DNA of 64,000 nucleotides, taken from the NCBI RefSeq assembly GCF_900104945.1, contig NZ_LT629736.1, positions 558,001-622,000 of the forward strand. Reading direction: 5' to 3'. The notes under the pieces are model-generated. The model was not told where the DNA came from and did no database searches. It saw only the letters and a program-made list of their open reading frames with translations. Position 1 is the stretch's first letter, and the number at the start of each line of letters is the position of its first letter. Made by a program: the position numbers and the translations under genes. Source of the stretch: Halopseudomonas xinjiangensis (GTDB taxonomy: Bacteria > Pseudomonadota > Gammaproteobacteria > Pseudomonadales > Pseudomonadaceae). Positions 36,206 to 45,028 of this stretch are shown here, one piece after another.

Positions 36206-38125
36206 ATGGTGTCACAGCGACGTTCGCGCAAAGAGGACAGCTCAGCCTGGACCGTGGCCGATAGCCGCAGCGTCTATGGCATCCGGCATTGGGGTGCCGG
36301 GTATTTCAATGCGAACGACCAGGGACACGTCGAAGTCAGGCCGCACGGAGAAGGAGGCGGCAGCATCGACCTCAACGACTTGGTGCAGCATTTGCGCGAC
36401 AGCGGACTGGACCTTCCACTGCTGGTGCGCTTCCCGGATATCCTCCAGAGCCGGGTGCGCCAGCTCACCGGCGCGTTCGATCGCAATATAGAGAGCATGG
36501 GCTACCAGAGCGGCTACACCGCCCTGTATCCGATCAAGGTGAACCAGCAGGAGGCGGTGGTGCAGAACATCATTGCCACCGAAAACGTCTCGATCGGCCT
36601 GGAAGCCGGTTCCAAGCCGGAGCTGATGGCCGTGCTGGCGCTGGCGCCCAAGGGCGGGACGATTGTCTGCAATGGGTACAAGGACCGCGAATTCATTCAT
36701 CTGGCACTGGTCGGGCAAAAGCTGGGTCACCAGGTATTCATCGTCATAGAGAAGGAATCGGAAGTCCGACTGGTCATCGAAGAGGCGGAAAAACTCGGTA
36801 TCACGCCTCAAGTCGGCTTGCGCGTGCGGTTGTCCTCACTGGCATCGAGCAAGTGGGCTGACACCGGTGGCGAGAAATCCAAGTTCGGCTTGTCCGCTGC
36901 GCAATTGTTACGAGTCATTGATCGTTTCCGCAGCGCCGGCCTAGAAGACGGCGTGCGCCTGTTGCATTTCCATATGGGTTCGCAGATTGCCAATCTCGCC
37001 GACTATCAGCACGGTTTTCGCGAAGCGATCCGCTACTTTGGCGAGCTGCGTGCCCTGGGTATGCCGGTCGATCATATTGACGTCGGTGGCGGTCTGGGCG
37101 TCGACTACGACGGCACGCATTCGCGCAACGCCAGTTCCATCAACTACGACGTGGACGAATATGCTCAGACGGTAGTCGGCATGCTCAAGGATTTCTGTGA
37201 CGAACAGAATCTGCCACATCCGCACATCTTCTCGGAAAGCGGTCGTGCGATGAGTGCGCACCATGCGGTGCTGATTGTGCAGGTCACCGATGTGGAGCGG
37301 CACAACGATACGGTGCCGCCGCTGGAGAATGTCGAGAGTCTGCCGCAGGTCGTACGCAATCTGGTCGGGCTTCTCGGGCAGACCGATATCGAGATGGTCA
37401 CCGAAACCTATTGGCGCGCCACGCACTATATGGCCGATGTCGGCGCGCAGTATGCCGAGGGCAAGCTGACCCTGTCGGAGAAGGCCCTGGCCGAACAGTG
37501 CTACTTCGCATTGTGCACGCGCCTGCACACCTTGCTGAAAGCGCGTCAGCGCTCGCACCGGCAGGTGTTGGACGAGCTCAACGACAAGCTGGCGGACAAG
37601 TACATCTGCAATTTCTCGGTATTTCAGAGCCTGCCGGATACCTGGGCAATTGCCCAGGTGCTGCCGATCATGCCGGTCAATCGGCTGGATGAAGAGCCGC
37701 TGCGGCGCGCGGTGCTGCAGGATCTGACTTGCGATTCCGACGGCAAGATTCGCCACTACGTCGACGAACAAAGTATCGAGAACAGCCTACCGGTGCATGA
37801 GCTCAGGGAAGGGGAGGATTATCTGCTGGCGATCTTCATGGTCGGCGCCTATCAGGAAATCCTGGGCGACATGCACAACCTGTTCGGTGATACCGACTCG
37901 GTGAACGTGTTTTTGCGCAGCGACGGCCGTGTTACGCACGGCGGCATCGAGACCCACGATACCATCGAGGACATGCTGCGCTACGTGCACATTGAGCCGC
38001 ACGAGCTGGTGACGCTGTATCGAGACAAGGTGGCGGGCGCGAAATTGAGCCAGGCCGAGCGCACCCGCTATCTGGATGCCTTGCGTCTCGGCCTGACGCG
38101 ATCTTCCTACCTCAACGCAGAGTAA
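36206..38125 (+). CDS. speA: SpeA, biosynthetic arginine decarboxylase
   Basis: The 639-residue fold-III PLP enzyme carries the PLP lysine in [17 protein letters not shown] and the glycine loop [27 protein letters not shown] block and, near the C-terminus, [19 protein letters not shown] complete the SpeA signature. It makes agmatine from arginine, the first step of the ADC route to putrescine. AAGAGGTG precedes the ATG. It is divergent from ectA and convergent with the autotransporter gene, 9 nt apart. Confidence 0.97.
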
Positions 38126-38127
38126 CG

Positions 38128-38147
38128 GCAGCGCTTAAAAGCGCTGC
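38128..38147. repeat. inverted repeat at the convergent ends of speA and the autotransporter gene
   Basis: GCAGCGCTT-AA-AAGCGCTGC begins 3 nt after the speA stop and covers the last codons of the opposing gene. The position suits a shared transcript end, but there is no T tract on either strand. Confidence 0.45.
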
Positions 38148-40837
38148 TGCCACTGGGCCATGAACACCTGCATGGGCCCGGCTTGCGCCTGATGACCTGG
38201 CTCGCGAATACCGAGCCAGGACAGCTTGACGTCGCTGTCCTTCCACACCGGTTTCTGCCAGAACGCTTCCAGATTCACCTGACGGCCGTCCGGGCTCAGG
38301 TCGAGCGTGAGCGCCTGCATGTCAAAGAGATTCCCCGCATAGCCGGTCGCGACATTGATGCTTGTTTCGGCGGATTCGACGCGTAGCGGTTGCTGCACGA
38401 CCAGGCCGAGCGTAGCGGTGTTCAGCGCATAGCGACCAGCGAACATCCAGCTGCTCGTAGTGACGGTGCCGAGATCGCGGAACAGCCCGTCGGCATCGGT
38501 CCTGCTTTGTCCGATGTAAGCAGAGTGGCCGAATGTCAGCGCTCCCTGAAGGAGCTCGCCATGCACGCCGGCAAAGAGGGTTTCGCTGACATCATCCAGG
38601 TCGAAGGCGCCGCGACCGTGGCTGTCGAACAGGCCGTCATCGCTGCGCACATAGCCAAGCTCCAATGTGGAAGCATAACCACCCGCGGTGGGCAGGTTGA
38701 GCCCCACTGCCATACCCTGACGCAGCGAGTTGGCGGTGCTGGTCATGTCCAGGCTGAAACTGCCCAGCGGTAGGCGCTGGCGCACGGCCATGGTCCGCTC
38801 GCCCGGCTGCTGCAACCACAGCGGTGACGAGAGGCTGCTGTCGAGCTGACTGTAGCCAGCCCAGCTGCGTCCAGCGGATAGCATGTCCAGATCGTCAACC
38901 TGACCGATACTGAGCGAGCGCCCTTCGCCCTGGTCGAAGCGCCTGACCTGGCTGCTCGGCATCGAGCCGGTCGATGCGGTCCAATACAGAGCGGTATCGC
39001 CGTCGTTTTGCTCATGCCAGCTGCGACCAAGACGCTGCCAGGCGGCGTGGGTGTCATAGCGATAGCGACGCTCGCTTACCTGCGAACCCAGATCGACGCT
39101 GAAACCTGCGTCCAGCGAGTCGGTTGCCATGACCTGCAAGCTGGCCAGCGGATTGTCGTAGCCGAAGGCCCCGCCTAGTACGAGGGCGGTGTTGTCGACG
39201 GACAGCGTCTCGCCGCTATCGCTGACAACGGTGAGCGTACCAACCGGCCGAGTCGCTTTCTCAAGGTCCATCAGCCCCTGACCGTACAGGCTCTGGTTGG
39301 CATAGATCCCTTCCTTGTAAGCAGTGACGAACAATCGCTGCACGACCTGTTCCGGCTCCAGGGTAGGGAAAGCCTGCCTGATCACCGCGAGGCCGCCAGT
39401 CACTGCGGGAGCTGCCATCGAGGTGCCCGATGCGATGGCGTAGCTGCTATCGCCCTCCACGTAGCTGGAGACGATATCGGTGCCAGGAGCGGCGATACAC
39501 CATGCCGCGGCATCACCGCAGGCGTTCGAGAAGCTGCTGAGCACGCCGGTGTCGGAGTCGACACTGGTCACTGCAACCCAGTTGTATTGCAGCTCTGGAT
39601 ACAGCTGGGGGATGGCTGAGAAAACCAGCGGTTGGCTCAAGCCTTCATTTCCGGTGGCCCAGACATAGATGCGTCCGGCCGCAGCTCCGGCTTGCCATTC
39701 GGCTCTCAGTTTGGGGAAGTACGACTCGACGGCGCCCTTGCCGAAGTCGGCGACGGTAGCGTCGATGCCCCAACTGTTGTTGAACCACGTGGCGCCATTG
39801 TTCCTTGCCCAGGCGAAGCCGTTGGCCAGTTGCTGGTCGTTTGCGCTGATGTTGTCGTTGGCGTCGGAAAACCTGACGTTCAGAAGCTGGGCGCCGTAAG
39901 CGTAGCCGACCACGCCAAAAGCATTTCTTCGTGCTACCAGAGTGCCGGCGACGTGGGTCCCATGACCGCCGCTATCCTGAGCGTCCGCCTCTGCGGTGCT
40001 GCCGGTCAGCAAGTTGTAATGTGCCGCGATCTGACCCTGCAATTCGAGGTGACTACTATTGACACCGCTATCGATGATCGCGATTCGCTCGCCGAGGCCG
40101 CTAAAGCCTCGCTCGTGCGCTACATGCCCGTACGTTAGGTTGTAGCCATTGGTGTTTTGATGCTCGCGAGATAGCGGCAATGCCTTGGCCGAATCATCCT
40201 CTCCTGGCAACGGGCCCGGGTCCGGCGCGGTGCCTGGATCGCCGCTTACTGGCTCGTTCGGCACTGGTTCGGTAGGTGGAGTCAATGTCGGTAGCGAGTC
40301 ACCGATGGGCTCCTCTTCGACCGGCGGAGCCTCATCGTCGCCAGGCGCTGGTTCCTCTGGAGCAGGGGCCGGGGCGGGTTCGCCACCGCCACCACCACCG
40401 CCACCGCCGCCTCCCGCTGCAGCGGCGCCGATGCCGACAATCAGCGCGCCACCCGCAACCCAGCCGAGCGTACGGCGGTCGGAGCGCATCCCGGACGAGC
40501 GGGTCTCGTTGTTGGCCAGGCTTTGTTCAAGCATCCCTTCCAGCATCGCCGATTGCTCGGCGCTGACGAGTCCCTGCGTCTCCACATAGACGGAGCGGGC
40601 GATGGCGTCTCCCTGGGACATCAACTCGCCGGCGCGCTGACGAAGCACGGCATCCGACTGGTTGGCCGCATTGACCAGCGCCTGAATCTGGTCCTGGCTC
40701 AGTACGTTGGTATACGCAGCCGACACCGGAGTGGACCCGTTCTGGGCGTGGGCGACAATAGGAAGCAGAACAAGTGGCGAGCTGGCAAGCAGCGCGGCAA
40801 GGCAAACAGGGCGGGTGTGAAAGCTCAATTTCGGCAT
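38135..40837 (-). CDS. subtilisin-like serine protease autotransporter
   Basis: This 900-residue protein has a signal peptide (about 1-31) and an N-terminal helical region. A short hydrophobic stretch (125-141) leads into an 11-glycine run and a Pro/Glu/Asp-rich linker to about 215. An S8 peptidase domain follows with triad Asp256 (AIIDSGVN), His295 (GHGTHVAGT) and Ser473 (SGTSMAAPA). The last 280 residues form a beta-rich domain ending in phenylalanine, as outer-membrane barrels do. It is probably secreted by the type V route, like the EprS/SphB1-type proteases. It stands alone, with no partner gene. Confidence 0.85.
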   Translation of the reverse strand: MPKLSFHTRPVCLAALLASSPLVLLPIVAHAQNGSTPVSAAYTNVLSQDQIQALVNAANQSDAVLRQRAGELMSQGDAIARSVYVETQGLVSAEQSAMLEGMLEQSLANNETRSSGMRSDRRTLGWVAGGALIVGIGAAAAGGGGGGGGGGGEPAPAPAPEEPAPGDDEAPPVEEEPIGDSLPTLTPPTEPVPNEPVSGDPGTAPDPGPLPGEDDSAKALPLSREHQNTNGYNLTYGHVAHERGFSGLGERIAIIDSGVNSSHLELQGQIAAHYNLLTGSTAEADAQDSGGHGTHVAGTLVARRNAFGVVGYAYGAQLLNVRFSDANDNISANDQQLANGFAWARNNGATWFNNSWGIDATVADFGKGAVESYFPKLRAEWQAGAAAGRIYVWATGNEGLSQPLVFSAIPQLYPELQYNWVAVTSVDSDTGVLSSFSNACGDAAAWCIAAPGTDIVSSYVEGDSSYAIASGTSMAAPAVTGGLAVIRQAFPTLEPEQVVQRLFVTAYKEGIYANQSLYGQGLMDLEKATRPVGTLTVVSDSGETLSVDNTALVLGGAFGYDNPLASLQVMATDSLDAGFSVDLGSQVSERRYRYDTHAAWQRLGRSWHEQNDGDTALYWTASTGSMPSSQVRRFDQGEGRSLSIGQVDDLDMLSAGRSWAGYSQLDSSLSSPLWLQQPGERTMAVRQRLPLGSFSLDMTSTANSLRQGMAVGLNLPTAGGYASTLELGYVRSDDGLFDSHGRGAFDLDDVSETLFAGVHGELLQGALTFGHSAYIGQSRTDADGLFRDLGTVTTSSWMFAGRYALNTATLGLVVQQPLRVESAETSINVATGYAGNLFDMQALTLDLSPDGRQVNLEAFWQKPVWKDSDVKLSWLGIREPGHQAQAGPMQVFMAQWQQRF

Positions 40838-40958: not shown

Positions 40959-41684
40959 TCAGCGGCCTGGGATGCTGATCCAGGTGGCTTCAGCGAAAGC
41001 AACCAACGAACCGTTCTCGCGGTACAGGGCCGTGCCTGTCTGGTGTTTACGCCCGTCGTGACGAATCGCCCAGCCATTGACGATGAGCGTCTCGCCCACG
41101 CGCACCGGCTCCAGCAGCCTGGCCGCGAACCGGCCGAGTAACGCCAGTCCGGATACGGGGCGAACGGCGAAGAATCCCGGGCAGTCGAGTGCCGCCCAGA
41201 GGAATTCGCTGGCGACCGTCTCGTCCCGGTCCGCCAGTGATGCGTCGGGTGTCCATAGTGCAGCGACACTCTGCTTCGGATCATCCAGTGGGCCGGCAAA
41301 GATCCGAAGCCCGTCGCCCGGATCGCGATTGGGCCCACAGACGAAGCAGCCCGGCAGGTCATGGCGGACGATGCCCTCGAAGCGTTGCTGAGCGGCGCTG
41401 GACGCGTCGATGGACGGCGCCGGTGGTACCGTCATCGCTAGTTCATACGGGCGCGCGCTGGCCAACAAGCGACCTTCGTGATGCAGTTGCATACCGTCGT
41501 CGGCTGCACTCAGGGTCAGTGGGGCGTCCAGCGGCGGCGGGGCGTGCAGGGTTACCTGGCAGCCGGCCGGCATCGCTTTGGCCAGTAATCCGGCAACATA
41601 GCCGCCATTGCCGCTTTGCGGGGGCCCGCAAAAACGCGAAGCGATGGTGATGTTTTGCCCCAGGAGAGTGACGGTTCCTACCAT
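40959..41684 (-). CDS. hotdog-fold (thioesterase-like) protein in the halohydrin dehalogenase operon
   Basis: The 241-residue protein looks like a double hotdog. The first half contains SGNGGYVAGLLA, where the fold's acyl-CoA helix would lie. The second half contains a CFVCGPNRDPGDGLRIF motif and FLWAALDCPGFFAV, followed by GRKHQTGTALYRENGSLVAFAEATWI, a classic hotdog strand pattern. Thioesterase activity is likely but untested. It starts 2 nt after the dehalogenase stop, so it shares its function or control. Confidence 0.65.
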   Translation of the reverse strand: MVGTVTLLGQNITIASRFCGPPQSGNGGYVAGLLAKAMPAGCQVTLHAPPPLDAPLTLSAADDGMQLHHEGRLLASARPYELAMTVPPAPSIDASSAAQQRFEGIVRHDLPGCFVCGPNRDPGDGLRIFAGPLDDPKQSVAALWTPDASLADRDETVASEFLWAALDCPGFFAVRPVSGLALLGRFAARLLEPVRVGETLIVNGWAIRHDGRKHQTGTALYRENGSLVAFAEATWISIPGR

Positions 41685-41686
41685 GT

Positions 41687-42367
41687 TCAGTCAGCCCATC
41701 CGCCGCATACCGGAAAGATCTGTCCGACAAAGCAGTCCGCCGCGTCGCTGCACAGGTAAGCGGCGAAGGAGGCGTCCTCCTCTGCCGAGACCAGCCGGCC
41801 GAGCGGCACCTCCCGCTTGAGCCGGGCCTGAAAAGCAGGATTGGCCTGGATATCTTCGGGAAAGTAGGTCGGGTTATCGACAAAATTCTGAGCGATGGCG
41901 TTGATCTTTACATTGTGCGGAGCCGCTTCCAGGGCCACTGAGCGGATGTAGGCCAACTGTGCCCCCCGTGCTGCACTGTAGCTCGACGCGCGCTTGATGC
42001 CACGCAAGGCCGAGGCGCTGCCCATCAGCAATATCTTGCCGGACTGGCGCTCGATCATTTTTGGCAGAGCAGCGCGGACGAGCCGCTGCAGCGGGTCGAC
42101 CATATGGGTGAACATCAGTTTCCATTCGTCATCGGTCACGTCGACCGCCGGCGTGTTCGGTGCAGGCACGCCGAGGTTGGCGACCAGCGCATCGATCTGG
42201 CCGGCCTGCTCGATAACGGCTTCCGCCTCGCCAGGATTGGCCAATGCTCCCTGCGCTGCGATCACCTCGGCGCCGCAGCGTTTGAACATGTCGTGCAGGG
42301 CCGGGCCCATGAAAGCTTCGGCGTGAGTAAGCAGGATACGTTTGCCGGACAGGTCTATCGGTTGCAT
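41687..42367 (-). CDS. probable halohydrin dehalogenase (SDR-fold haloalcohol dehalogenase)
   Basis: The 226-residue SDR-fold protein lacks the TGxxxGIG nucleotide-binding motif. In its place it has T14-X4-F19-X-G21 (THAEAFMG), the halide-site signature of halohydrin dehalogenases. The catalytic triad also matches their pattern exactly: Ser117-X12-Tyr130-X3-Arg134, with arginine replacing the lysine of true SDRs. The NFVDNPTYFP loop corresponds to the halide-binding loop. These enzymes convert vicinal haloalcohols to epoxides plus halide and accept azide, cyanide or nitrite in reverse. An epoxide hydrolase is encoded 55 nt upstream. GGGAG precedes the ATG. Confidence 0.85.
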   Translation of the reverse strand: MQPIDLSGKRILLTHAEAFMGPALHDMFKRCGAEVIAAQGALANPGEAEAVIEQAGQIDALVANLGVPAPNTPAVDVTDDEWKLMFTHMVDPLQRLVRAALPKMIERQSGKILLMGSASALRGIKRASSYSAARGAQLAYIRSVALEAAPHNVKINAIAQNFVDNPTYFPEDIQANPAFQARLKREVPLGRLVSAEEDASFAAYLCSDAADCFVGQIFPVCGGWAD

Positions 42368-42422
42368 GCAATCTCCCTTGGCACAGATCAGTCGTCAGAT
42401 GCGGTTTTTCAATACCGGCTAT

Positions 42423-43382
42423 TCAGGTATAGGTGCGGCCGAGAAACTCGAGCAGCAGCCGGTTTACCTCCTCGGCCTGCTCGCCCTGAATCCAGTGGCC
42501 GCAGTCGGTGAACACGTGCTGCTCCACCTTGGGTACAAGGCTGGGCATTTTCTGAATGGTGTAGGCCTCCATTTCGCCAACCGGGTCCCGGTCGCCGATC
42601 AGGAATAGTGCCGGTTGTTCGATCTGCAGGCCAGCCAGGTCGGCGGTACGTTCCCAGCTGCGCTGGAAGTTGCGATACCAGTTCAGCGGGCCCCGGAATC
42701 CGCAACGCTCGAAAGTCGCTACGTATACGTCGAACGCGTCGGGTGGGCACCACTCCGGCGGCACGCCGGGGTCGACACGGTCTTCCAGCCATCGCGCGTC
42801 GGCCGGCTTGTCATTGAACAGCGCATTGCTCTTGCCGCTCTCCGAGAGTCCATGCATCGCCAGGCGCAGGGTTCTGGGAATATCCGCCTCGAGTTCCTGC
42901 TCCGCGCGTCCGGGCTCCTGGAAATACAGGATGTAATGGAAGCGGTCCTTGAAATGCTCGCGCATGATGTCGATCGCCGGGCGCTTGGGCCGTCCGCCGA
43001 AGGGCACCGACATCCCGCAAACCACCTTGACCCGCTCAGGTTCCAGCAACGCCAGGTGCCAGGCCACAGGCGCACCCCAGTCGTGGCCGACCATCGCCAC
43101 TTCGGTGTGCCCGAGATGGTCCATCGCCGCCTGAATGTCGCTGCAGAGCGTGATCAGGTCATAGGCTTCGATCGGTTGCGGTGCGCTGGTCCGGCCGTAG
43201 CCGCGCATTTCCGGAACGCAGACGCGGAAACCGGCGTCCGCGAGTGCTGCCATCTGGTGTCGCCAGGAATACCAGCATTCGGGAAACCCGTGCAGCAGCC
43301 AGACCGGCTTGCCTGTTTCGGGGCCGGCGAAGTGGACGCTCAGGTCGATGTCGTTGACGTGAAGGATCTGCTGGTCGGTCAT
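42423..43382 (-). CDS. epoxide hydrolase (alpha/beta-hydrolase fold)
   Basis: The 319-residue protein has the oxyanion motif HGFPECWYSWR. Its nucleophile is Asp101 in VGHDWGAPVAW, where esterases have serine. The lid tyrosines are about Tyr150/153 (FHYILYFQEPG) and Tyr236 (NWYRNF), with acid Asp266 (GDRDPVG) and His296 (CGHWIQGE). All elements of a soluble epoxide hydrolase are present, so it should open epoxides to diols. It heads the operon with the halohydrin dehalogenase and hotdog genes and would remove the epoxide that the dehalogenase produces. Confidence 0.9.
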   Translation of the reverse strand: MTDQQILHVNDIDLSVHFAGPETGKPVWLLHGFPECWYSWRHQMAALADAGFRVCVPEMRGYGRTSAPQPIEAYDLITLCSDIQAAMDHLGHTEVAMVGHDWGAPVAWHLALLEPERVKVVCGMSVPFGGRPKRPAIDIMREHFKDRFHYILYFQEPGRAEQELEADIPRTLRLAMHGLSESGKSNALFNDKPADARWLEDRVDPGVPPEWCPPDAFDVYVATFERCGFRGPLNWYRNFQRSWERTADLAGLQIEQPALFLIGDRDPVGEMEAYTIQKMPSLVPKVEQHVFTDCGHWIQGEQAEEVNRLLLEFLGRTYT

Positions 43383-43505: not shown

Positions 43506-44120
43506 TCATGTCCCGCTGCGCCCGATTGCCAGTAGCAGGCTGAGCACGCTCAGGCTCAGGGCCAGCAAGCTGATGATCAGTGGCCAGCGACCGGAGGGAG
43601 CCGGGCCGCCGGCCTGGGTCGGCGGTTCGTGCGCAAAGGTCGTCGAGCGCGCCGGTGCCGAGGGCGTGAATACAGGGTCGTCGTGGGTCGGGTCGGCGCT
43701 GCCCTGCATCAACTTGAGCATGCGTTCCACCAGGTGGTGATCGAAGCGGTAGGGATCAAACTCACTGAAGCCATGCTCGTCCAGCAAGCCCCTGACATGG
43801 TCATCGGTGGGTATGAACTTCATCGACCAGTCGGGAAACGAGAGGCGCCGAATCGGCTCGTGCACCAGCAACTTCAAGTCATGATGACGTCCGTCCCGGC
43901 GCAGTCGGCGGTATAACGCAGCGATCTTGCTGCGCTCGCCTTCCAGACACTGGAAGAAACAGCCATCGCCATAATGAAGCATGCCGACCACGCCGCTATG
44001 GTGATTATTGCGTCGCGAGACAGCGAGTATCTGTGCCACGTTGGCGTCCACTCCATCTTCCGCCGTGGTCGGCCGGAAGTCTGCGCGACTGATGTAGACG
44101 ATGCGAACCAGCTCTGTCAT
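43506..44120 (-). CDS. BLUF blue-light photoreceptor with C-terminal membrane anchor
   Basis: The 204-residue protein starts with a BLUF domain (1-100). It has the flavin-switch Tyr9 (RIVYISRA), Asn38/39 (RRNNHHSGVVGML), Gln57 (GDGCFFQCLEGE) and the Trp98/Met100 pair (FPDWSMKF). A helical stretch and a Pro/Ala-rich linker lead to one hydrophobic helix (about 178-199, WPLIISLLALSLSVLSLLLA) with only a few residues after it. This suggests a tail-anchored inner-membrane sensor without an enzymatic output domain. It is divergent from the PlsC gene across 107 nt. Confidence 0.87.
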   Translation of the reverse strand: MTELVRIVYISRADFRPTTAEDGVDANVAQILAVSRRNNHHSGVVGMLHYGDGCFFQCLEGERSKIAALYRRLRRDGRHHDLKLLVHEPIRRLSFPDWSMKFIPTDDHVRGLLDEHGFSEFDPYRFDHHLVERMLKLMQGSADPTHDDPVFTPSAPARSTTFAHEPPTQAGGPAPSGRWPLIISLLALSLSVLSLLLAIGRSGT

Positions 44121-44227
44121 AACCACCCGTGTCGAGAGTCCTGAGCTTCGAGCATAGGCGCTGGGGATTGAAGTATGGCAAGCTTTGTATTTCAAGAAAC
44201 GTCCGCTTGCGCACGAGGATTTTCGCG

Positions 44228-45028
44228 ATGTCATCGAACCCAGGGAAGGTTACGGCCGCGACCGTGTGGCAACGTATCACTGTATTCCTTGCTTCGCTCC
44301 TGGTCACCGTCGGGTATTGTGTCGACGTGCTCTGGCGCGCCGCGCTAGGTCGACTGGACCGCAGTCGTGTCGACCGTTACACCCGCAGCTGGTCCGGCTG
44401 GTTACTCCGCCTGATCCGGATGCGCCTGAGCGTCGAGGGCAGCTGCCCTGACTTCAATGACGGGCGCCGGTACATCATCCTCTGCAATCACGCCAGCCAC
44501 TACGATATTCCTGCTAGCTTTGTCGCCATGCCGGGCTCCATTCGCATGCTGGCCAAGTCGGAGCTGTATCGTATTCCGCTGCTGGGTGCTGCGATGCGCG
44601 CGGCTGAGTTTCCGTCCATCAACCGGCATCAGCGCGAACGAGCAGTGGCCGATTTGCAACGCGCCCGGAAGATGATGGAATCGGGGATCGTGTTGTGGGC
44701 GGCACCAGAGGGAACACGCTCGCCGCATGGACGCCTGTTGCCGTTCAAGAAAGGGTGTTTTCATCTGGCGCTGGACACCGGTGCGATCGTGGTGCCGGTG
44801 GCGATCAGAGGTATTCACCGGGTGCTGCCGGCCAGGACGCGGCAATTCAACTTCGGTCAGTCGGTATCGCTGCACATCGGTGAGCCTATCGACAGCGCCC
44901 GCTATGACCTGGCCGGCCTGATGACCGAGACGCGGCGGCGAATGGTGGACCTGCTCGGGGAGCAACCGGAAGAGGCGTCTGCCGCCGAAACGTCGAACGA
45001 TTCGCTGACACGACCTCAAGTGTCCTGA
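44228..45028 (+). CDS. PlsC-type 1-acyl-sn-glycerol-3-phosphate acyltransferase
   Basis: The 266-residue protein has an N-terminal membrane helix (about 17-38) and the acyltransferase motifs NHASHYDIP (HX4D), FPSINRHQRER and APEGTRSPHGRLLPFKKG, then VVPVAIRG. It probably acylates lysophosphatidate in membrane lipid synthesis. The chosen ATG has GAGG 9 nt ahead; the longer opening runs into the divergent promoter region. Its stop lies 1 nt from the end of the convergent hypothetical gene. Confidence 0.88.
   Translation: MSSNPGKVTAATVWQRITVFLASLLVTVGYCVDVLWRAALGRLDRSRVDRYTRSWSGWLLRLIRMRLSVEGSCPDFNDGRRYIILCNHASHYDIPASFVAMPGSIRMLAKSELYRIPLLGAAMRAAEFPSINRHQRERAVADLQRARKMMESGIVLWAAPEGTRSPHGRLLPFKKGCFHLALDTGAIVVPVAIRGIHRVLPARTRQFNFGQSVSLHIGEPIDSARYDLAGLMTETRRRMVDLLGEQPEEASAAETSNDSLTRPQVS

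Follow-up and report, generated by a model that had tools for sequence, protein, structure and literature searches.

A predicted D-subtype halohydrin dehalogenase encoded behind an epoxide hydrolase in Halopseudomonas, and the history of their linkage

The stretch of DNA analyzed here (the window, 64,000 nucleotides) comes from a Halopseudomonas xinjiangensis genome that is a single contig of 3.54 Mb. It encodes a 226-aa protein which, judged by sequence and structural modeling, is a D-subtype halohydrin dehalogenase (HHDH), closest to the HheD members and not to other subtypes or to short-chain dehydrogenases (SDRs). There are good grounds to think that this protein is a functional enzyme coupled with the epoxide hydrolase (EH) encoded directly upstream, the HHDH gene having been placed behind an older EH gene, an arrangement that fits halohydrin and epoxide detoxification. 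The EH-HHDH operon is an already known arrangement; what the analysis adds is how the two genes came to be linked.

Results

Organization of the Locus

The following features of the window are relevant:

36206..38125, plus strand: speA-like arginine decarboxylase, bordering the variable EH site across the genus where the contig extends that far
40959..41684, minus strand: predicted TesB-like double-hotdog protein of 241 aa, a putative acyl-CoA thioesterase (AlphaFold2 and Foldseek)
41687..42367, minus strand: predicted HHDH of the D subtype, 226 aa (both HHDH motifs, phmmer, Foldseek and tree)
42423..43382, minus strand: EH of the EphA/soluble EH type with an alpha/beta-hydrolase fold, 319 aa (phmmer, PF00561 and residues)
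43506..44234, minus strand: BLUF blue-light-sensor protein (PF04940), 5' of EH

The genes for EH, HHDH and the hotdog protein were all intact on the minus strand, in the frames given by a preliminary description of this DNA, and followed one another in the order EH, HHDH, hotdog, separated by 55 and 2 bp, respectively. Against the nearest relative, dN/dS was 0.04 for HHDH and 0.09 for both EH and the hotdog gene (rough values, with dS above 1), and purifying selection seems to act on all of them. The promoter scan of the locus gave no promoter-like match (0.8 in shuffled sequences), and the terminator scan gave two terminator-like matches, no more than in shuffled sequences (2.4).

The BLUF protein carries a hydrophobic C-terminal stretch, and its gene lies 123 bp above EH on the same strand; this gene is immediately 5' of EH in five of the 18 loci where HHDH is located at the EH site. 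On the other flank, 121 bp below the hotdog gene, a 900-aa subtilase with a poly-Gly stretch is encoded (38135-40837, minus strand), which is found at the site in some relatives only. Additionally, an acyltransferase ORF (44129-45028, plus strand) overlaps the BLUF ORF by 106 bp when first starts are called, and one of the two starts is probably wrong.

Identity of the HHDH

HHDHs are defined by the motifs T-X4-[FY]-X-G and S-X12-Y-X3-R, according to PMC4989007 and PMC11976700. Both were present in the 226-aa protein, as T14-HAEA-F19-M-G21 and S117-X12-Y130-X3-R134, and no other six-frame ORF of the window (196 with a minimum of 100 aa) carried the two together. The SDR motifs TGxxx[AG]xG and YxxxK were both missing from it, with Arg standing at the position of the catalytic Lys. 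The coordinates, the frame and the motif pattern of the preliminary description were confirmed in this way. The residues T14, F19, G21, S117, Y130 and R134 were invariant across 18 aligned sequences.

The search of the PDB with phmmer was led by 7b73 (2.6e-93), 8xxb (1.5e-91) and HheB (6.8e-53), followed by a "dehalogenase" (6a41, 1.9e-31) and by SDR-type dehydrogenases from 5.2e-23 on. The entry 7b73 is HheD2 (PMC9629495), and 8xxb is, by its structure title, a triple mutant of HheD8 with chloride. Once again, HheD2 was the first match (E 2.3e-28, TM 0.87), with HheD8 also at the top, when an AlphaFold2 monomer model of the protein (pLDDT 81.8, weak at residues 119-125 and 215-226) was compared by Foldseek.

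A tree of 104 rows was built with a quick method and gave long-branch warnings for the SDRs, HheB and the Novosphingobium protein L160 described below. A branch with a support of 100 divided the 100 HHDH rows from the four remaining rows, which are SDRs encoded in the window's own genome. The window HHDH stood with HheD2, HheD8 and HheB, away from the SDRs, and fell in a clade of 17 HHDHs of the genus (support 95). Subtypes A, C and G were compared through the sequence and fold searches, outside the tree. The further SDR matches to the HHDH in its own genome (29 listed) were at most 32% identical to it. Both the phylogeny and the structure model bore out the assignment that had been proposed from the motifs.

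The Epoxide Hydrolase and the Distribution of the Two Genes

Epoxide hydrolases of the EphA/soluble EH (sEH) type are recognized by an Asp nucleophile, two lid tyrosines, an Asp-His pair and an HGXP motif. The protein encoded upstream of HHDH contains HGFPE at 31-35, GHDWG with Asp101, and Tyr150, Tyr236, Asp266 and His296; Asp101 is taken here to be the nucleophile, Tyr150 and Tyr236 the lid tyrosines, and Asp266 and His296 catalytic residues. Over its length it matched EphA (5cw2, 1.9e-76) and sEH (4jnc, 8.8e-65) in the PDB by phmmer, and PF00561 in Pfam. These sequence matches support its identity as a complete EphA/sEH-type epoxide hydrolase, as the preliminary description had it.

The view of this EH as a dedicated partner of HHDH was not supported by the genome survey. 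EH was detected in 36 of the 37 Halopseudomonas genomes at E 1e-40 or better (33/33 of those of good quality), and HHDH was missing from 15 of these 36. In a family draw, EH was found at E 1e-80 or better in 59 of 129 genomes: 15 Halopseudomonas genomes and 44 from other genera. Neither HHDH nor the hotdog gene was among the nearest genes in ten EH loci from other genera, where a BacA (UppP)-type gene was located 5' of EH in six (Pfam was run on one of these). Since EH is widespread without HHDH, other genera included, it must have a role of its own.

HHDH itself was accessory in the genus (22/37 genomes), and these 22 were the only carriers among 248 genomes of the family. Four other genomes had it in the class draw (n = 369) and three others in the phylum draw (n = 398). 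A scan of species genomes with two peptide patterns returned relatives in 483 of 503 candidate stretches, of which the best 80 of the 483 were kept. HHDHs had been called rare; D-type enzymes are indeed uncommon in the class and phylum draws, but with 483 relatives, and with members published in 2018, the family is no longer small.

EH-HHDH Linkage in Halopseudomonas

The presence or absence of EH and of the hotdog gene was decided by tblastn and genome search, not by a gene caller. In 17 of the 22 HHDH genomes, EH was the next gene 5' of HHDH and had the same orientation, with 14-84 bp between the matched stretches. In G090 a chemotaxis-receptor gene separates the two (2.1 kb). In G153 they are 590 kb apart, and in G190 and G187 they are on separate contigs, while in G205 (81% complete) EH was not found. 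HHDH lies less than 1 kb from a contig end in G205 and G187, so that its lack of an adjacent EH there rests on the neighborhood shared with G153, which is complete. The HHDHs of G153, G190, G187 and G205 stand apart in the tree and share this other neighborhood.

This second HHDH lineage of the genus (L122, L123, L124 and L125) is 63-65% identical to the window HHDH. Its site adjoins genes that were judged by eye to be SbcCD-like, and the stretch fetched holds no EH.

At the EH site the adjacency was thus nearly constant, being found in 17 of the 18 genomes with HHDH there. The gene above EH varied, the commonest one being present in 8/18, and so did the content of the interval between EH and speA, which borders the site. 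The loci with EH and without HHDH were fetched for 12 of the 15 genomes (G193, G196 and G199 were left out), and EH was followed by Vut_1 in 10 of the 12, nine of which continue via a ligase-like gene to speA; the two exceptions to the EH-Vut_1 order are G074 and G105. At the HHDH-bearing locus L037 the order was EH-HHDH-Vut_1-ligase-like-S8 protease-speA. The Vut_1, ligase-like and S8 protease labels come from one example per family scanned in Pfam. These gene orders suggest that HHDH was inserted behind an older EH at a variable site beside speA, the direction of change being deduced from them.

Sixteen of the 17 adjacencies belong to one clade of the tree (support 95), and the remaining one, L041, is close by but not firmly in it. 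Therefore, the 17 adjacencies count as about one event and not as 17, and the coupling, seen in one genus, probably goes back to a single event.

HHDH Loci Outside Halopseudomonas

The 80 loci kept from the species-genome scan comprised 12 of the genus, in every one of which HHDH directly follows EH. The other 68 and six further loci made up the 74 outside loci, 63 of them with at least 1 kb of flank on both sides. Both HHDH motifs were found in all 74 homologues. By contrast, tblastn at E 0.01 detected neither EH nor the hotdog gene near any of them; weak EH-like matches (22-28% identity) occurred in four loci, about 6 to 9 kb off, and there were no hotdog matches. No other neighbor recurred: the commonest cluster was present in 7/74 loci, and among 75 same-strand neighbors within 300 bp no Pfam family (E 1e-5) occurred in more than two. 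For this clustering the HHDH ORF was forced, since the simple caller had kept it in 48 of the 80 loci.

Therefore, D-type HHDHs are usually without a fixed partner, an adjacent EH is not required for their role, and the EH-HHDH coupling is particular to Halopseudomonas among the D-type loci seen. The preliminary description had placed the whole route from haloalcohol through epoxide to diol in one operon; the adjacency of EH and HHDH proved real, but a general or widespread HHDH-EH-hotdog operon was rejected, with 0/74 outside loci showing it. The co-occurrence held within the genus, at 17/22 HHDH genomes. Plasmid carriage was also considered and no sign of it was found: one plasmid record matches the protein at E 1e-40, and in the DNA search none of 19 matching records covers 80% of the DNA.

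Additionally, the plasmid pSA2 of Novosphingobium resinovorum (L160:1-12657) carries the gene of an HheB-like protein, 11 bp after that of an EH of the EHN family (PF06441), in a cluster with a PQQ alcohol dehydrogenase, an aldehyde dehydrogenase and an acyl-CoA dehydrogenase. This protein is 50.5% identical to the window HHDH, groups with HheB on a long branch, and has Ser in place of Thr in motif 1. Since both the HHDH subtype and the EH family differ, this is a separate HHDH-EH pairing, and it is the best indirect support for the two activities having been selected together.

The two genes could also have become neighbors by chance insertion, with HHDH acting alone and EH serving an unrelated detoxification. 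Such a history is possible but doubtful: it agrees with the wider spread of EH than of HHDH, with the 74 outside loci that have neither EH nor a recurrent partner, and with the variable EH-speA interval and the four genus HHDHs at another site, but it sits poorly with an adjacency that was kept in 17 of 18 genomes, in the same orientation and with short gaps, while the gene above EH changed, or with the separate pairing, involving another EH family, in Novosphingobium. A point against the coupling is that the gene below HHDH is fairly constant too (a hotdog gene no more than 1.2 kb away in 13/18), so that EH is not the sole stable neighbor of HHDH.

The Hotdog Protein

The AlphaFold2 model of the hotdog protein is of moderate confidence (pLDDT 75.7). 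In Foldseek it retrieved TesB-type structures at the top (4r4u at 4.3e-8, 3u0a and 3cjy, with TM of about 0.5-0.6), and the single hotdogs THEM4 and PaaI lower in the list. No Pfam or NCBIfam model matched the sequence at E 0.001, and its best PDB sequence match was at 0.031. The name "hotdog" therefore designates a putative TesB-like double hotdog on the strength of the model.

The gene was found in 24 of the 37 genomes of the genus. In 13 of the 22 HHDH genomes it lies no more than 1.2 kb from HHDH; all 13 belong to the 18 whose HHDH is at the EH site (the simple gene caller placed it below HHDH in 9/18, an undercount relative to tblastn), and in G058 a GGDEF gene stands between the two. A third place for it in the pathway, which had been suggested with an acyl-CoA-linked halohydrin as the substrate of all three enzymes, is very unlikely. 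The gap of 2 bp behind HHDH, the frequent proximity and a TesB-like fold indicative of an acyl-CoA thioesterase would all agree with such a pathway. However, the hotdog gene is elsewhere or on another contig in seven HHDH genomes, it was not found in two HHDH drafts that keep EH-HHDH (G184 and G202), and it occurs in four genomes without HHDH, in one of which (G074) it is at the EH site. Outside the genus, none of the 74 HHDH loci has it. In the class draw it was present in 7 of 369 genomes, the own genome included, and the other six show no overlap with the four further genomes in which HHDH was found in the equal-size class draw (369).

In the hotdog tree, the HHDH-locus label needs two changes against a shuffled mean of 9.0, so inheritance at the site has been the rule for this gene. 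It is a frequent yet dispensable neighbor of EH-HHDH, and unlikely as a pathway partner.

Discussion

The sequence features make it most likely that the window HHDH is functional and, from what is known of the two families, that the EH-HHDH pair detoxifies haloalcohols via the epoxide to the diol. With Arg134 lowering its pKa and Ser117 assisting, Tyr130 would deprotonate the hydroxyl of a vicinal haloalcohol, and the alkoxide would displace the halide into the T14-X4-F19-X-G21 pocket, which is the NAD(P)H site in SDRs, so that an epoxide is formed. This product would then be hydrolyzed to a diol via Asp101 of the EH, whose gene lies 55 bp upstream. An HHDH gene placed behind an older EH near speA, and mostly kept there, would fit a joint role in halohydrin and epoxide detoxification.

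An extended chain, in which the halohydrin form of a halogenated acyl compound is converted to the epoxy acyl and then to the diol acyl form while the thioesterase handles the CoA ester, is highly improbable; if true, it would supply a natural substrate for D-type HHDHs, for example halohydrin fatty acids that arise through algal haloperoxidases or through hypohalous acids. The alternative of an ordinary NAD(P)H-dependent SDR, which matches above the Pfam cut-offs for PF13561 and PF00106 and matches to many NCBIfam SDR models (each below its cut-off, 25 shown of 189) might suggest, was ruled out as extremely improbable by the missing TGxxx[AG]xG, the Arg at the catalytic Lys position, HHDHs being by far the closest solved relatives in the PDB search, the tree split and Foldseek.

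The EH-HHDH lineage of Halopseudomonas makes the proposed route from haloalcohol through epoxide to diol testable in marine isolates, with the relatives lacking HHDH as natural controls. Caution is needed beyond the genus, as the natural function of other D-type HHDHs cannot be read from the Halopseudomonas operon when 74 outside loci show no recurrent partner.

HHDHs of this lineage have been in print since 2018, and the window protein therefore adds to a known subtype. HheD12 was described from P. pelagia CL-AP6, under the older name Pseudomonas for Halopseudomonas, in a paper that also reports, from BLASTP, HHDHs (68-91% identity) for every marine member examined of the P. pertucinogena lineage apart from P. 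litoralis, and one for the terrestrial P. xinjiangensis (PMC6922532). The term "epoxide hydrolase" does not occur in the main text of that paper. According to a 2016 review, only two of the HHDH genes then known shared an operon with an EH, and other functions were left open (PMC4989007); HheD12 may be one of these two.

The closest known system is that of HheD12. The homologue in Halopseudomonas pelagia CL-AP6 (L038) is 77% identical to the window HHDH and is, judged by strain and subtype, presumably HheD12 itself. It shares with the window the genus, the D subtype and an EH directly upstream, but has no hotdog gene behind HHDH, this gene being on another contig of the same species genome. 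HheD2 (7b73) and HheD8 (8xxb) have the same fold as the window HHDH and both motifs, at 63-65% identity over nearly the full length. HheD2 groups with L086 and L111 (Porticoccaceae) and L113 (uncultured Pseudomonadales), and EH and hotdog matches are absent from the stretches fetched for these three. The Novosphingobium pairing likewise has an EH directly upstream of an HHDH-like gene, but it involves another HHDH group, another EH family and a larger catabolic cluster. HheC of Agrobacterium radiobacter is of a different HHDH subtype from the window protein and is likewise encoded in an operon with an EH, for which haloalcohol detoxification has been proposed (PMC11976700, PMC4989007).
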